The translations under genes and the position numbers were made by a program. From the NCBI GenBank assembly GCA_029976065.1, contig JARKNV010000002.1:62001-126000 (forward strand): 64,000 bases of DNA, read 5' to 3'. The notes beneath the pieces are model-generated. The model searched no databases. It worked only from the letters and a program-made list of their open reading frames with translations, and was not told the DNA's origin. This document shows, piece by piece, positions 38,445 through 44,963 of this stretch (position 1 is its first letter; the number at the start of each line of letters is the position of its first letter). Origin of the DNA: Selenomonadales bacterium. Lineage in GTDB: Bacteria > Bacillota > Negativicutes > Sporomusales > UBA7701.

Positions 38445-40307
38445 TTATTTGCCGCTCATCTTTTTGATCCTACGCCACAGTGTCGAGCGGCTTATGCCGA
38501 GGAGCCGGGCCGCTTCGCCATATTTGCCGCGGGTGGCGGCCAGGGCTTTTTTTATTTCCTCGCTCTCGTTTTCGAGCAGGAAGGGACTGATGCCGGGTTC
38601 CTGCTCGTCGGCAAGCATCTCGGCCACGACGGTGGCGGTGGCCTTGCCTTCGCGACAGACGACGGCGATGCGCTCGACGGTATTTTCCAGTTCGCGGATA
38701 TTGCCGGGCCAGGGGTAGCGGGCCAGGAGGTCGAGGGCGTCGTCGGTGAAGGCGAGACGCCGGTCGGTGGCCGCGGTGTAGCGGGCCAGGAAATAACGGG
38801 CATAGACGGGGATATCGGCTAGCCGCTCGCGCAGCGGCGGGACGCGCAGGCGGAGGACGTTGAGGCGGTAGTACAGATCGGCGCGGAAGTTGTTCTGGGA
38901 CACCATCTGTTTTAACGTGCGGTTGGTGGCCGCAATGACGCGGACGTTGACGGGGATGACCTTGTCGCTGCCCAGCCGCATCACTTTTTTCTCCTGGAGG
39001 ACGCGTAGCAGCTTGCCCTGGGTGGCCAGATCCATTTCGGCGATCTCGTCGAGGAAGATGGTGCCGCGGTGGGCGACCTCGAACAGGCCGGGCCGGCCTT
39101 CCCGCATCGCGCCGGTGAAGGCGCCGCCGACATAGCCGAACAGCTCGCTCTCCAGTATCTGACTGGGAAGAGCGGCGCAGTTGATTGCCACGAACGGCCC
39201 GCCGGCCCGCTGGCTGTGATTGTGGATGCTTTGGGCGAAGACCTCTTTGCCGGTGCCTGTCTCGCCGAGGATGAGGACGGCCGACTGGGTGGCGGCGAAT
39301 TCCTTGGCCATGCGCAGGGTGTTCTCGATTATCGGCGTGTGGCCGAGGACGTCGTCGAAGGTGAAGGAGGCGACGTGGCCGGAGGCGTAAATCTCGCGGC
39401 GGATGCGCTCCTCCATTTGCTGTATTTTGCTGACGTCCTGGAAGTTGGCCACCGCGCCGGCCACCTGTCCGCTTACCTTGATGGGGATTTTGTTGCAAAG
39501 AATGCGCTTGCCTTTGACGCGCAGCAGGTGGTCGAGGTCGTCGCGGCCGGTCCTGAGGACGTCGGCGAGCTTGAGCTCAGGCCAGACTTCGCTTATCGGG
39601 CAGCCCACGGCCCGGGCTTCGTCGATGCCGGTGAGGCGCTGGGCCACCGGGTTGAAGACGGTCACCCGACCGGTATGGTCGACGGAGATCACGCCTTCGT
39701 AGGCGTAGTCGAGCACGGTTTTGACCAGGCCGGCCTTGACCTTTTCCAGCTTGCGGGCCTGGGCGAGGCGCTTGGCCTCCTGGACGGCCTGGATTATTCC
39801 TTCGGCGCCGCTTTCGATGAAAACGGCCGGAATGCCGTGGAGGGCGGCCACTTTGGCGGTAATGACGCCGCCGATTACCACGTCGGCGCCGTCGGCGAAG
39901 GCGCGTTTTACGTTGGCTTCGGCCTCGAATTCGCTGTTGATGATGTAGTTGCGGAGGTTGACCTCCAGGATGGGGGCCAGACAATCGATGCCCATCACCA
40001 TGGACGGAAAGGCGACGACGGCGATATTGCTGCTGAAGGCACGGGCCTTCTCCACTGCGCGGATAAGATCGAAGCCGGTGATTGAGACTTCGACGATGCT
40101 GACGGCGAGGCCGGCGTCCCGGATGGCCGAGGCGGTACCGCCTCGGGTGATGATGATTTCGACGCCGCCGGCGACCAGGTCCCTGGCCACGGTGACGCCG
40201 GCGCTCAAGAGGCCGAGACGGACGGCTACGTCGCCGTGCTCGGCGGCGAGGACGGCCTGCGCGGTGGCCAGCATGCCCTCGTCGGGGGCCAAGAAGGCAA
40301 TTTTCAT
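38445..40307 (-). CDS. PrpR-type sigma-54-dependent transcriptional activator
   Basis: 620 residues in four parts: an N-terminal PrpR sensor domain (about 1-185, with TRGGTASAIRDAG), a PAS domain (about 195-305), the AAA+ domain (about 325-560) with Walker A GETGTGKE and the sigma-54 contact loop GAFTGA, and a C-terminal Fis-like helix-turn-helix ending ARLLGISRSTLWRRIKKM. It lies divergent from the transporter-racemase-dehydratase operon, which has a consensus -24/-12 promoter, so it is the likely activator. PrpR domains bind small organic acids; the inducer is probably the operon's substrate. Confidence 0.95.
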   Translation of the reverse strand: MKIAFLAPDEGMLATAQAVLAAEHGDVAVRLGLLSAGVTVARDLVAGGVEIIITRGGTASAIRDAGLAVSIVEVSITGFDLIRAVEKARAFSSNIAVVAFPSMVMGIDCLAPILEVNLRNYIINSEFEAEANVKRAFADGADVVIGGVITAKVAALHGIPAVFIESGAEGIIQAVQEAKRLAQARKLEKVKAGLVKTVLDYAYEGVISVDHTGRVTVFNPVAQRLTGIDEARAVGCPISEVWPELKLADVLRTGRDDLDHLLRVKGKRILCNKIPIKVSGQVAGAVANFQDVSKIQQMEERIRREIYASGHVASFTFDDVLGHTPIIENTLRMAKEFAATQSAVLILGETGTGKEVFAQSIHNHSQRAGGPFVAINCAALPSQILESELFGYVGGAFTGAMREGRPGLFEVAHRGTIFLDEIAEMDLATQGKLLRVLQEKKVMRLGSDKVIPVNVRVIAATNRTLKQMVSQNNFRADLYYRLNVLRLRVPPLRERLADIPVYARYFLARYTAATDRRLAFTDDALDLLARYPWPGNIRELENTVERIAVVCREGKATATVVAEMLADEQEPGISPFLLENESEEIKKALAATRGKYGEAARLLGISRSTLWRRIKKMSGK

Positions 40308-40340
40308 GGCGTCACTCTCCTGCGACGATGTGAAACATTA

Positions 40341-40392
40341 TAAGACAATTTTAAGACAATGTTGCAGCAAATGCAACGTTTGTCCGGACAAA
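40341..40392. promoter_or_regulatory. Candidate activator-binding region with two palindromes
   Basis: Direct repeat TAAGACAAT at 40341-40349 and 40352-40360 (11-base period), then GTTGCA-N5-TGCAAC (40361-40377) and the perfect palindrome TTTGTCC-GGACAAA (40379-40392). They lie 26-77 bases upstream of the -24 element and just before the regulator gene, fitting an enhancer site for the sigma-54 activator. Confidence 0.55.
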
Positions 40393-40417
40393 GCCTCTAG
40401 ATAAGCCTGCGACGCGC

Positions 40418-40432
40418 TGGCACGACAATTGC
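40418..40432 (+). promoter_or_regulatory. Sigma-54 (-24/-12) promoter
   Basis: TGGCACG, four bases, TTGC: an exact match to the sigma-54 consensus TGGCACG-N4-TTGC. The transcription start would be about 12 bases further, roughly 38 bases before the DASS gene start. Confidence 0.85.
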
Positions 40433-43181: not shown

Positions 43182-43195
43182 GAGGGGAGCAAACC

Positions 43196-44449
43196 ATGCA
43201 CGCAATAGAGAAGATTCTCGCCAAGGCGGCCGGCAAGTCCGCGGTGGCTACCGGGGAGATCATCAACTGCAAGGTGGATCTGGCTGGCATCAACGACCTC
43301 TACCTGCAGACAATCCGCTCCTTCCGCGAGATGGGCGGCAAACGGGTCCACGACCCGAAAAAGGTGGTCGTCTTCCTCGATCACTACGCCCCCGCCTCGA
43401 CCATCACCCAGGCCGACAATCAGAAACAGTTCCGCGAGTTCTGCTGGGACCAGGGCATCGACCTCCTGATGGATGTCAACACCGGCGTCTGCCACCAGGT
43501 GCTGGCCGACAACGGCCTCGTCTATCCCGGCATGGTGCTGGTGGTGACCGACTCGCACACCACCACCCACGGCGCGTTCGGCGCGTTCGGCACCGGCGTG
43601 GGGGCCACCGACCTGGCGATCATCATGATGACCGGCCAGCTGTGGTTCAGGGTGCCGGAAATCATCCGCATCAACCTCGACGGCAAGCTCCCCAAGGGCG
43701 TGTTCGCCAAGGACGTAATCCTCAAGGTCATCGGCAGCCTGGGCGCCGACTACGGCGTCTACCGGGCGGTGGAGTTCACCGGGCCGGTGCTGGAGGAATT
43801 GAGCGTCTCCGAGCGGATGGCGCTGTGCAACATGACTACCGAGATGGGCGCCAAGACCGCCTACATCCAGCCGGACGGGATCACCCTCGATTTCCTGAAG
43901 GGCAAAACCCAGCACGGCTGCGAAATCTTCACAACCGATCCCGGTTACAAATACGCGGCCGAGCACACCTTCGACGTCACGGAGCTCAAACCGCAGGTCG
44001 CCGCTCCCCACAGTGTCGACAACGTCTTCGACATTACCAAATACATTGGCAAGCCCGTCAACCAGGCCTTTCTCGGCACCTGCACCGGCGGCCGGGTGGA
44101 AGACCTTGCCGTGGCCGCCCGCATCCTCAAAGGCAAACGCATCAACCCGCGGACCCGCTTCTTGGTTGTGCCGGCCTCGCAAGGGGTTTTCCTCGAGGCG
44201 ATGGCCAAAGGATACATCCAGACGCTGATCGAGGCCGGGGCGACCTTCGTTACGCCCGGCTGCGCCGCCTGCCTCGGCACCCACCAGGGGATGCTGGCCG
44301 CGGGCGAGATCTGCATCACGGCGTCGAGCCGCAACTTTCCGGGCCGGATGGGCCACACCCAGGCCGAAATCTTTGTCGGTTCGCCGGCCGCCGTCGCCGC
44401 CGCCGCCCTGGAGGGCAAAATCGTCAATCCGGCAGACTACCTGGACTAG
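43196..44449 (+). CDS. Aconitase-family hydro-lyase, large subunit (LeuC-like)
   Basis: 417-residue [4Fe-4S] subunit of the LeuC/homoaconitase small-form group. Cluster cysteines C296, C356 and C359 have the exact LeuC spacing (C-x59-C-x2-C; GTCTGGR and PGCAACLG). TDSHTTTHGAFGAFGTGVGATDLA is the substrate/cluster region. GAGGGGAGC lies before the ATG. The small subunit follows directly. Context (transporter, racemase) argues against isopropylmalate isomerase in leucine synthesis, since no leuA or leuB is near. Maleate/D-malate or dimethylmaleate hydratase types are known in this family and are better guesses. Confidence 0.9.
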   Translation: MHAIEKILAKAAGKSAVATGEIINCKVDLAGINDLYLQTIRSFREMGGKRVHDPKKVVVFLDHYAPASTITQADNQKQFREFCWDQGIDLLMDVNTGVCHQVLADNGLVYPGMVLVVTDSHTTTHGAFGAFGTGVGATDLAIIMMTGQLWFRVPEIIRINLDGKLPKGVFAKDVILKVIGSLGADYGVYRAVEFTGPVLEELSVSERMALCNMTTEMGAKTAYIQPDGITLDFLKGKTQHGCEIFTTDPGYKYAAEHTFDVTELKPQVAAPHSVDNVFDITKYIGKPVNQAFLGTCTGGRVEDLAVAARILKGKRINPRTRFLVVPASQGVFLEAMAKGYIQTLIEAGATFVTPGCAACLGTHQGMLAAGEICITASSRNFPGRMGHTQAEIFVGSPAAVAAAALEGKIVNPADYLD

Positions 44450-44462
44450 GGGAGGGAGAGCA

Positions 44463-44963
44463 GTGAAAAACGTCATAACCGGCAAGTGTTTCGTATACGG
44501 GCCCAATATCGACACCGACCAGATTTATCCCGGCCGGTTCCTCGACCTCACCGACCCCGACAAGGTGGCGGAGCACGCCATGGAAGGGGCCGATCCCTCG
44601 TTCGTCAGGGAGGTCAAGCCGGGCGACATCATTGTCGCCGCCGCCAATTTCGGCTGCGGTTCGAGCCGCGAGCACGCCGCCGTGACCCTGAAAACCGTCG
44701 GGGTGGGAGCCATCCTGGCCGACTCCTTTGGGCGGATATTTTACCGCAACGCCATCAACCTCGGGGTTCCCCTGCTGGTCTGCCCCGGCATCGCCGGCCT
44801 GGTAAAACGGGGCGACACGGTAACCGTCGACCTTGCGACCGGCAAAGTGACCAGCGAGACTACCGGCGCGACCGCCCAGGCTCAGCCGCTGACGGGCTAT
44901 GTGATGGAGATATTGTCCAGCGGCGGGATAAAGCCGATGATTAAAGCGAAGTACGGGCAATAG
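44463..44963 (+). CDS. Aconitase-family hydro-lyase, small subunit (LeuD-like)
   Basis: 166-residue swivelling domain subunit pairing with the LeuC-like protein. Motifs: GPNIDTDQIYPGRFL, the substrate loop NFGCGSSREHAAVTLK and FGRIFYRNAINLGVPLL. The GTG start follows GGGGAGGGAGAGCA. The substrate-recognition segment between NFGCGSSREHA and the FYRNA motif would define specificity, but I cannot decide it by eye. It is the last gene of the sigma-54 operon; a terminator follows. Confidence 0.9.
   Translation: MKNVITGKCFVYGPNIDTDQIYPGRFLDLTDPDKVAEHAMEGADPSFVREVKPGDIIVAAANFGCGSSREHAAVTLKTVGVGAILADSFGRIFYRNAINLGVPLLVCPGIAGLVKRGDTVTVDLATGKVTSETTGATAQAQPLTGYVMEILSSGGIKPMIKAKYGQ

Follow-up and report, generated by a model that had tools for sequence, protein, structure and literature searches.

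A conserved sigma-54-type operon joining a LarA homologue to a LeuCD-like hydro-lyase, predicted to act on C4-dicarboxylates

Introduction

Within the LarA superfamily, malate racemases are reported to form the largest group, and the consulted part of the paper that says so gives no pathway for them (PMC11770544). Maleate hydratase (EC 4.2.1.31) has been cited as an activity of the leuC product of M. jannaschii, meaning that an aconitase-superfamily enzyme is capable of the reaction, and in 2021 it was listed without a KEGG function number (PMC8307300, in the part consulted). No dedicated gene family for maleate hydratase is named in the literature searched, which has most subscription journals outside it, nor was an operon of LarA and LeuCD found there; the main text of PMC7583248 makes no mention of aconit*, isopropylmalate, dehydratase or transporter. 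The subject of this report is such an operon, located at positions 38445-44963 of a 64-kb stretch of DNA (the window) from a Selenomonadales bacterium. The window corresponds to positions 62001-126000 of contig C35 in the source genome (G000), a 3.42-Mb draft that is 88% complete with 6% contamination. On the strength of its sequence, the locus appears to be a real, conserved operon assignable to C4-dicarboxylates. Its parts are known, and the LarA-LeuCD combination and the LeuCD subfamily are new to the literature searched.

Each part has described relatives. The isopropylmalate/citramalate isomerase and the homoaconitase of M. jannaschii (MJ0499/MJ1277 and MJ1003/MJ1271) are, like the LeuCD-like pair, two-subunit aconitase-superfamily proteins with the cluster cysteines and a GSSRE motif. 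Maleate hydratase would share its proposed reaction, and DmdAB is likewise a LeuCD-type hydro-lyase of a catabolic cluster. The malate racemases MAR2/LarAH6 and LarAH62 have in common with the LarA of the window all residues binding the nickel-pincer nucleotide (NPN) cofactor, both catalytic residues and a His-Lys pair (H-K). The PrpR/PrdR-type sigma-54 activators share PrpR_N and AAA+ domains and the GAFTGA motif with the activator.

The operon and its proposed pathway

The case is carried by the gene content of the locus, its promoter, the cofactor and cluster residues, the larC and larE genes and separate leucine cluster of the genome, and the repeated occurrence of LeuCD alongside malate enzymes and LarAs of the malate-racemase type, all of which are observed directly. 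An activator gene on the minus strand (38445..40307) diverges from four plus-strand genes that code for a DASS-family dicarboxylate transporter (40480..41886), a LarA homologue (41919..43181), a LeuC-like large subunit (43196..44449) and a LeuD-like small subunit with a GTG start (44463..44963). The spacings between the four are 32, 14 and 13 bp. A previous sequence-only reading of the window had placed all five genes correctly and had described a consensus -24/-12 promoter. The element TGGCACGACAATTGCA (40418..40433, plus strand) is indeed an exact fit to the sigma-54 consensus TGGCACGNNNNTTGCW, and it is the sole match with at most one mismatch in the 64-kb window (shuffled mean 0.80). The element is also seen next to divergent homologous activators. 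Among 27 such intergenic regions, restricted to lengths of 40-900 bp, 24 have zero to two mismatches (exact in nine, one mismatch in six, two in nine), with three mismatches in two regions and five in one.

The operon is proposed, with moderate confidence, to be under sigma-54 control and to serve the catabolism of a C4-dicarboxylate that is unsaturated or of D configuration; LeuCD would convert maleate to D-malate and LarA would convert D-malate to L-malate. The PrpR_N-type activator would sense the substrate and open the -24/-12 promoter, and the carrier, judging by its family, would import the dianion. The LeuCD-like [4Fe-4S] hydro-lyase would then hydrate maleate to D-malate, which LarA with its nickel-pincer cofactor is predicted to racemise to L-malate, a prediction made from active-site residues and kinship. 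L-malate would join the fumarate/malate pool, where fumarase or malic enzyme could take it. D-malate is the simplest joint intermediate of such loci and might be removed by LarA, by the tartrate/D-malate dehydrogenase TTC or by a D-hydroxyacid dehydrogenase. The sequence-only reading had suggested the same general scheme of import, hydration or dehydration by LeuCD, stereo-inversion by LarA and entry into the malate/fumarate pool. As a class of pathway, this appears to be the best-supported reading; maleate and D-malate are its proposed compounds, and a tartrate scheme, discussed below, is a possible but doubtful substitute.

The racemase

The residues D72, R75, H174, K184 and H200 that had been listed for LarA are all present, together with H109, the second catalytic histidine, which had gone unlisted and is H108 in LarA1. 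The superfamily signature of NPN-binding R75, K184 and H200 and catalytic H109 and H174 is therefore complete. The protein has the Lar_N/LarA_C architecture, and its best PDB match is Mar2, with 337 bits; a lactate racemase scores 221. At LarA1 positions 358/359, H/Q followed by K is the usual pattern of malate racemases (PMC11770544, in the part consulted). The window LarA reads H353/K354 at these positions (W358/T359 in LarA1) and not the W and E/Q/T of lactate racemases, and it scores 333 bits against the Ni_dep_LarA model, under the cut-off of 460. It is predicted from its active-site residues and kinship to be a malate racemase. Identity as a lactate racemase was considered and is ruled out by the residues and profile scores, so that action on lactate only, named earlier as the outcome that would count against the scheme, is not borne out by the sequence.

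The cofactor can presumably be made by the cell, as genes for NPN synthesis are found at G000:C58, where LarC (PF01969, 477 bits) and LarE (TIGR00268, 311 bits) flank an open reading frame (ORF) that is LarB-like by eye. The genome has eight Lar_N matches; residue typing covered five of the seven paralogues of the window LarA (L087, L088, L090, L091 and L092), and none of the five has H-K. Two compounds previously suggested for assay with LarA, citramalate and dimethylmalate, have to be dropped. LarA takes a hydride from C2 (PMC11770544, in the part consulted), and citramalate and 2,3-dimethylmalate are barred as substrates because their hydroxyl carbon has no hydrogen to give.

The LeuCD subfamily

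The three cluster cysteines claimed for the LeuC-like protein are C296, C356 and C359. The protein is above the cut-off of the broad subfamily models TIGR01343 and TIGR02086 only, and the LeuD-like protein is above that of TIGR02087 (183 bits). Membership in the LeuC/LeuD family is what would favor a role in leucine synthesis (as an isopropylmalate isomerase) or in lysine or coenzyme B synthesis (as a homoaconitase), but the specific models all fall beneath their cut-offs: LEU2 with 439.6 against 610.65, HacA with 433.9 against 550 and leuD with 166.4 against 245.85. The observation that leuA and leuB are lacking, from which leucine synthesis had been discounted, is correct at the locus. The argument is strengthened because leuA, leuC, leuD and leuB stand in series elsewhere in the genome (G000:C34, locus L083; by eye, with leuA and leuB assigned by sequence start and gene order); the LeuC encoded there is 40% identical to that of the window. 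A biosynthetic role is thus highly improbable.

Phylogeny points the same way. In a 46-row tree, the subfamily forms one clade of 36 rows with support of 100/99 that leaves out MJ0499, MJ1003, the genome's own leuC product, the archaeal LeuCs and a protein resembling DmdA. A 100-row tree, from which this last row is absent, is concordant (86 rows, SH-aLRT 99), and both clades include four relatives from the same order at about 50% identity. Grouping with biosynthetic isopropylmalate isomerases, the other outcome named in advance as contrary, is not seen. Among the best 80 of 175 named relatives, 65 loci lie at 58-89% identity and the other 15 at 46% or less. The LeuC-like proteins also have characters of their own: a number of positions, including 35, 36, 38, 42, 64, 65 and 298, are nearly invariant and unlike those of four reference enzymes (L35, Y36, Q38, Y64 and A65 being characteristic), and SCTG replaces SCTN in 79 of 82 members. 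The LeuCD-like pair can thus be regarded, from its sequences, as a distinct multi-phylum subfamily that does not serve leucine synthesis.

In the small subunit, a five-residue loop has been described as the region of substrate recognition (PMC7308503, in the part consulted). The loop of the window LeuD reads PGRFLDLT, with the acidic D28 aligned where homoaconitase (HACN) has Arg; the M. jannaschii enzymes have YLVY or YLRT in place of FLDL. Of 79 family members, 76 carry E or D here, in contrast to V in the isomerase, R in homoaconitase and N in the genome's own LeuD, and the absence of V and R further separates the pair from leucine and homoaconitate enzymes. One could also imagine that LeuCD acts on a C-substituted maleate, such as citraconate/citramalate or similar, with LarA serving a separate malate step. 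The closest solved relative is the isopropylmalate/citramalate isomerase, citrate-lyase-type subunits (possibly citramalate lyase) adjoin LeuCD in L123, L198 and L199, and a malate-CoA-ligase/CitE-like set comes after it in L191 (by eye). However, the loop has an acidic residue in place of the isomerase's Val, citramalate is unusable by LarA, which needs a hydrogen on C2, and the recognised enzyme neighbours are chiefly C4 enzymes. This explanation is considered improbable.

The dimethylmaleate-type kinship that had been suggested for LeuCD did not hold. DmdAB was tried as an identity for the pair and rejected, because a genome of the same order (G019) has a nicotinate-fermentation-type cluster with its own LeuCD-type pair, and the two pairs coexist there. 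The large subunit of that pair, used as a proxy for DmdA in place of the E. barkeri sequence, is 37% identical to the window LeuC and stands apart from it on a long branch of the 46-row tree; the small-subunit loops of the two pairs also differ (by eye).

As a separate observation, the nicotinate-type cluster (L274; G019:C1:2842001-2862000) begins about 3.4 kb from an activator beside LeuCD. It contains PrpF/Mii-like, GlmL-like and PrpB-like genes, recognised by hidden Markov models (HMMs), and mutase-, Hgd- and enamidase-like ORFs (by eye). The source genome has two more LeuCD-like paralogues, L082 (G000:C37) and L085 (G000:C42), with altered small-subunit GSSRE motifs; one has a TctABC-like transporter and an HpcH-type aldolase-like gene as neighbours and the other GntR-like and HMGL-like genes (by eye).

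Recurrence of the gene pair

The sequence-only reading knew of no characterised system with this gene set. None was found in the literature searched, but the set is not unique, as it recurs in other genomes. Within the order (28 genomes, the source genome included), a LarA relative at E <= 1e-100 is found in 14 genomes and a LeuC relative of at least 76% identity in 11. LarA adjoins LeuC in seven (G000, G020, G021, G023, G024, G025 and G027), and the activator adjoins LeuCD without LarA in G002, G006 (twice), G019 and G026. Across the phylum, 18 of 398 genomes have a LeuC relative at E <= 1e-140. Gene neighbours were counted within 8 kb of LeuCD at 82 loci, which comprise 17 drawn from the phylum and the 65 named loci above; the 15 more distant loci, which are archaeal (43-46%), and one phylum match (L114) stand outside these counts. 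Genes of the relatives were called with a codon-usage script, so that starts may be off and genes may be missed, and several loci come from metagenome bins whose titles are possibly wrong.

LarA lies near LeuCD in 7 of the 17 phylum-drawn loci outside the source genome, far above the roughly 0.7-4% per locus expected by chance if 1.4-8 LarA genes are assumed for every 3 Mb. H-K is present in every LeuCD-linked LarA typed, that is, in 16 of the 18 loci with LarA as well as in the window, L063, L066 and L067; the LarAs of L185 (off the contig, 111 aa) and L144 (in two pieces) count as loci and stand outside the residue check. The linked LarAs fall into at least four clades of the LarA tree: the MAR2 group (L124, L126, L127 and L130, with L125 near), L132 apart, Desulfovibrionaceae with L131, and the window's own clade including L188 and L190. 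The first four are 66-68% identical to the characterised MAR2 and L125 is 62% identical. LarA thus appears to have been recruited beside LeuCD at least four times. These figures bear on the view that LarA and LeuCD are only co-regulated and have unrelated substrates, for example a D-malate racemase and an independent hydro-lyase. That view draws on the 64 of 82 loci without LarA within 8 kb, on a relative that keeps larA alone at the same site (G022, described below) and on G002 and G019, in which larA is distant from LeuCD. It does not readily accommodate the pairing of one LeuCD subfamily with LarAs from four or more clades or the excess over chance, and it is given little probability.

The other neighbours recall C4-dicarboxylate metabolism. 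At the 82 loci, LarA is found at 18, the activator at 26, DASS at 18, malic enzyme at 13, FumA at 11 and FumB at 12; TctA, TctC, LysR and alpha/beta hydrolase occur at 14 each, and a 2HCT-type transporter and an enolase-type gene at eight each. Rarer are TTC and oxaloacetate decarboxylase (four each) and MDH and D-2-hydroxyacid dehydrogenase (three each). The labels FumA, FumB, ME, ENO, DH, MDH, TRc, TRd, ABH and CitE were each assigned from a single cluster representative scanned with HMMs; oxaloacetate decarboxylase was labelled from the L075 copy (the L142 locus), citrate-lyase alpha from L123, D-2-hydroxyacid dehydrogenase and TctC from L079 (L149) and DctM from L074, and the TctA, TctB, LysR, HK, RR, GntR and AEC labels were given by eye. 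Representatives of FumA (fumarate hydratase), FumB (general Fe-S hydro-lyase), TTC and MDH are above cut-off, and those of malic enzyme, enolase-type, CitE-like and 2HCT are under every curated cut-off. TTC, D-2-hydroxyacid dehydrogenase and the enolase-type gene never co-occur with LarA (0 of 13 loci; hypergeometric about 0.03, relatedness ignored), which D-malate as a joint intermediate would explain. Desulfacinum infernum, for example, has a TTC enzyme in its LeuCD locus and a sole, weak Lar_N match (3.2e-11). In Lucifera butyrica, the locus (L153) reads activator-LarA-LeuC-LeuD; the organism ferments malate, and lactate is negative, isomer not stated, in what is presumably its table column (PMC6315149, in the part consulted).

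Some neighbours are noted for their own sake. A HAD type II protein (above cut-off in the L075 copy; L142:6276-6950) and the alpha/beta hydrolases of the 14 loci adjoin LeuCD; we presume that such enzymes might free malate or tartrate from halo- or epoxy-succinate. In L170 and L171 (Geosporobacter and a relative), a transketolase-like pair and a D-2-hydroxyacid dehydrogenase stand upstream of LeuCD (by eye), unexplained by the malate scheme.

Malate or tartrate

The main rival to the maleate pathway is a tartrate operon, in which DASS would import a tartrate isomer, LarA would epimerise C2 to give meso-tartrate and LeuCD would dehydrate this product to oxaloacetate. An oxaloacetate decarboxylase gene follows LeuD, with no racemase at the locus, in L150, L151 and L196; this fits oxaloacetate better than D-malate, and the rival is therefore kept. 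By our own Cahn-Ingold-Prelog reasoning, meso-tartrate (2R,3S) matches 3-isopropylmalate in spatial arrangement, a hydroxyl taking the place of the isopropyl group, and a 3-OH could be held by the acidic loop residue. TTC bears the family name tartrate dehydrogenase, and the LeuCD locus of Levilactobacillus zymae shows LysR, LeuCD and DASS only. Among the relatives of class I two-subunit and enolase-type hydro-lyases are enzymes that act on tartrate. We know of no tartrate dehydratase in the aconitase superfamily. Malate racemases do epimerise tartrates, as in LarAH62 (D/meso 1.1e4 and L/meso 3.5e3 M-1 s-1), but this enzyme favors malate 57- to 180-fold (PMC11770544, Table 2 and the part consulted). 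Moreover, the FumA representative passes the fumarate hydratase model (389 against a cut-off of 276) and fails that of L(+)-tartrate dehydratase (170 against 365), FumB is recognised by no model more specific than the general Fe-S hydro-lyase ones, and malic enzyme, with alpha/beta hydrolase and LarA ahead of it, is one of the most frequent enzymes near LeuCD. Taken together, the tartrate operon is unlikely, if still the strongest of the rivals.

Several observations weigh against the maleate pathway itself. It is hard to see what the conserved acidic loop residue would do for maleate, which is unsubstituted; the residue suggests a polar substituent on the substrate. The decarboxylase loci just described belong here as well, and at 39 of the 82 loci LarA, FumA, malic enzyme, TTC, oxaloacetate decarboxylase and MDH are all absent. 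A relative of the same genus (G022) keeps only larA (L062:9847-11121), with the same flanks and the activator, DASS and LeuCD absent. As for the racemase, the window LarA shares just 40% identity with MAR2, stands in a clade of its own made up mostly of same-order and same-class proteins, and is below the NCBIfam cut-offs for LarAH6 (453.8 against 500) and LarAH5 (375 against 462), as well as for LarAH10. H-K was considered as proof of malate specificity, and a control weakened it: the residues alone are a weak discriminator because 32 of 49 control LarAs across the phylum carry them, in a non-random set of the 29 best-scoring loci and 20 hand-picked from the same list, one of which (L247) is LeuCD-linked.

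Whole genomes give a mixed picture. A Lar_N match, weak ones included, is found in 28 of 30 hand-chosen LeuCD-bearing genomes, in which one or two matches were typed where there were several. In nine genomes the match is the only one. It is strong (E < 1e-57) in five of them, reading H-K in Levilactobacillus zymae, Robertmurraya and two Sulfurospirillum genomes and N-K in G171. In the remaining four it is weak and yielded no malate-racemase residues: G437 (Epulopiscium) has H-P, G432 and G443 are unalignable and G269 was outside residue typing. Eight genomes (G269, G432, G433, G435, G437, G440, G441 and G443) have no match better than 1e-35, and G432 has a TTC dehydrogenase in its LeuCD locus. 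Of the genomes with malic-enzyme/2HCT loci, G440, G441 and G443 are without a convincing LarA, and G442 and G045 have one with H-K. In Anaerospora (G006), neither LeuCD locus (L142 and L151) has LarA and nothing matches the window LarA at E <= 1e-100; nine Lar_N matches lie elsewhere, the best one typed reading F-V.

In Sulfurospirillum and Robertmurraya, a malate-racemase-type LarA lies near larB/C/E-like genes (by eye) and FumAB (L305:4869-12103, L306:6403-12022 and L304:459-8938), with DASS also present in L304 and L305 (S. diekertiae and Robertmurraya).

Significance

The recurrent LeuCD partner gives the malate racemases a testable pathway, and the LarA/LeuCD pair, which recurs in unrelated anaerobes, may supply the genes so far lacking for a little-studied one. 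In our estimate there is an even chance that maleate hydratase has its own, dedicated family in this LeuCD subfamily or, should the loci linked to oxaloacetate be the better guide, that the subfamily is the first aconitase-superfamily tartrate dehydratase. LeuCD with LarA, recruited at least four times, would then be a widespread anaerobic pathway and a physiological role for nickel-dependent malate racemases, with the small-subunit E/D loop as the sequence hallmark of the LeuCD subfamily. Since the subfamily is recognisable by sequence (acidic loop, SCTG and L35/Y36/Q38), a new annotation could be given to proteins that profile models assign no further than the broad isopropylmalate/homoaconitate family.

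Regulation, transport and minor features

The transporter is well above cut-off for TIGR00785 (446.3 bits against 198.6) and scores 543 bits with PF00939. The activator has the order PrpR_N-PAS-sigma54(AAA+)-HTH_8, with 135.9 bits for PrpR_N, 230 bits for Sigma54_activat and GAFTGA at residue 395, and homologues of 57-85% identity adjoin LarA or LeuCD within the order. The PrpR type named earlier is seen in the PrpR_N domain; in contrast to the PrpR/PrdR-type activators, the protein scores beneath both equivalog cut-offs (368.6 against 499.2 for PrpR, TIGR02329) and its target operon differs. A 14-bp palindrome, TTTGTCCGGACAAA (40379..40392), is a weak candidate for the activator site because none of 14 bp is found in three same-genus activator regions (L063, L064 and L065). 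A stem-loop resembling an intrinsic terminator lies 3' of the LeuD gene (44971..44994, plus strand); it is a pattern match, weak by itself because shuffles gave 0.6 such sites. A gene after LeuD codes in some loci for PrpR_N fused to a methyl-accepting chemotaxis signalling domain (L075:11158-12243, scanned with HMMs, and L142:8999-10084, L076:11632-12729 and L077:11545-12588, by eye from the protein starts). The fusion is probably a cytosolic chemoreceptor for the same ligand as the activator.

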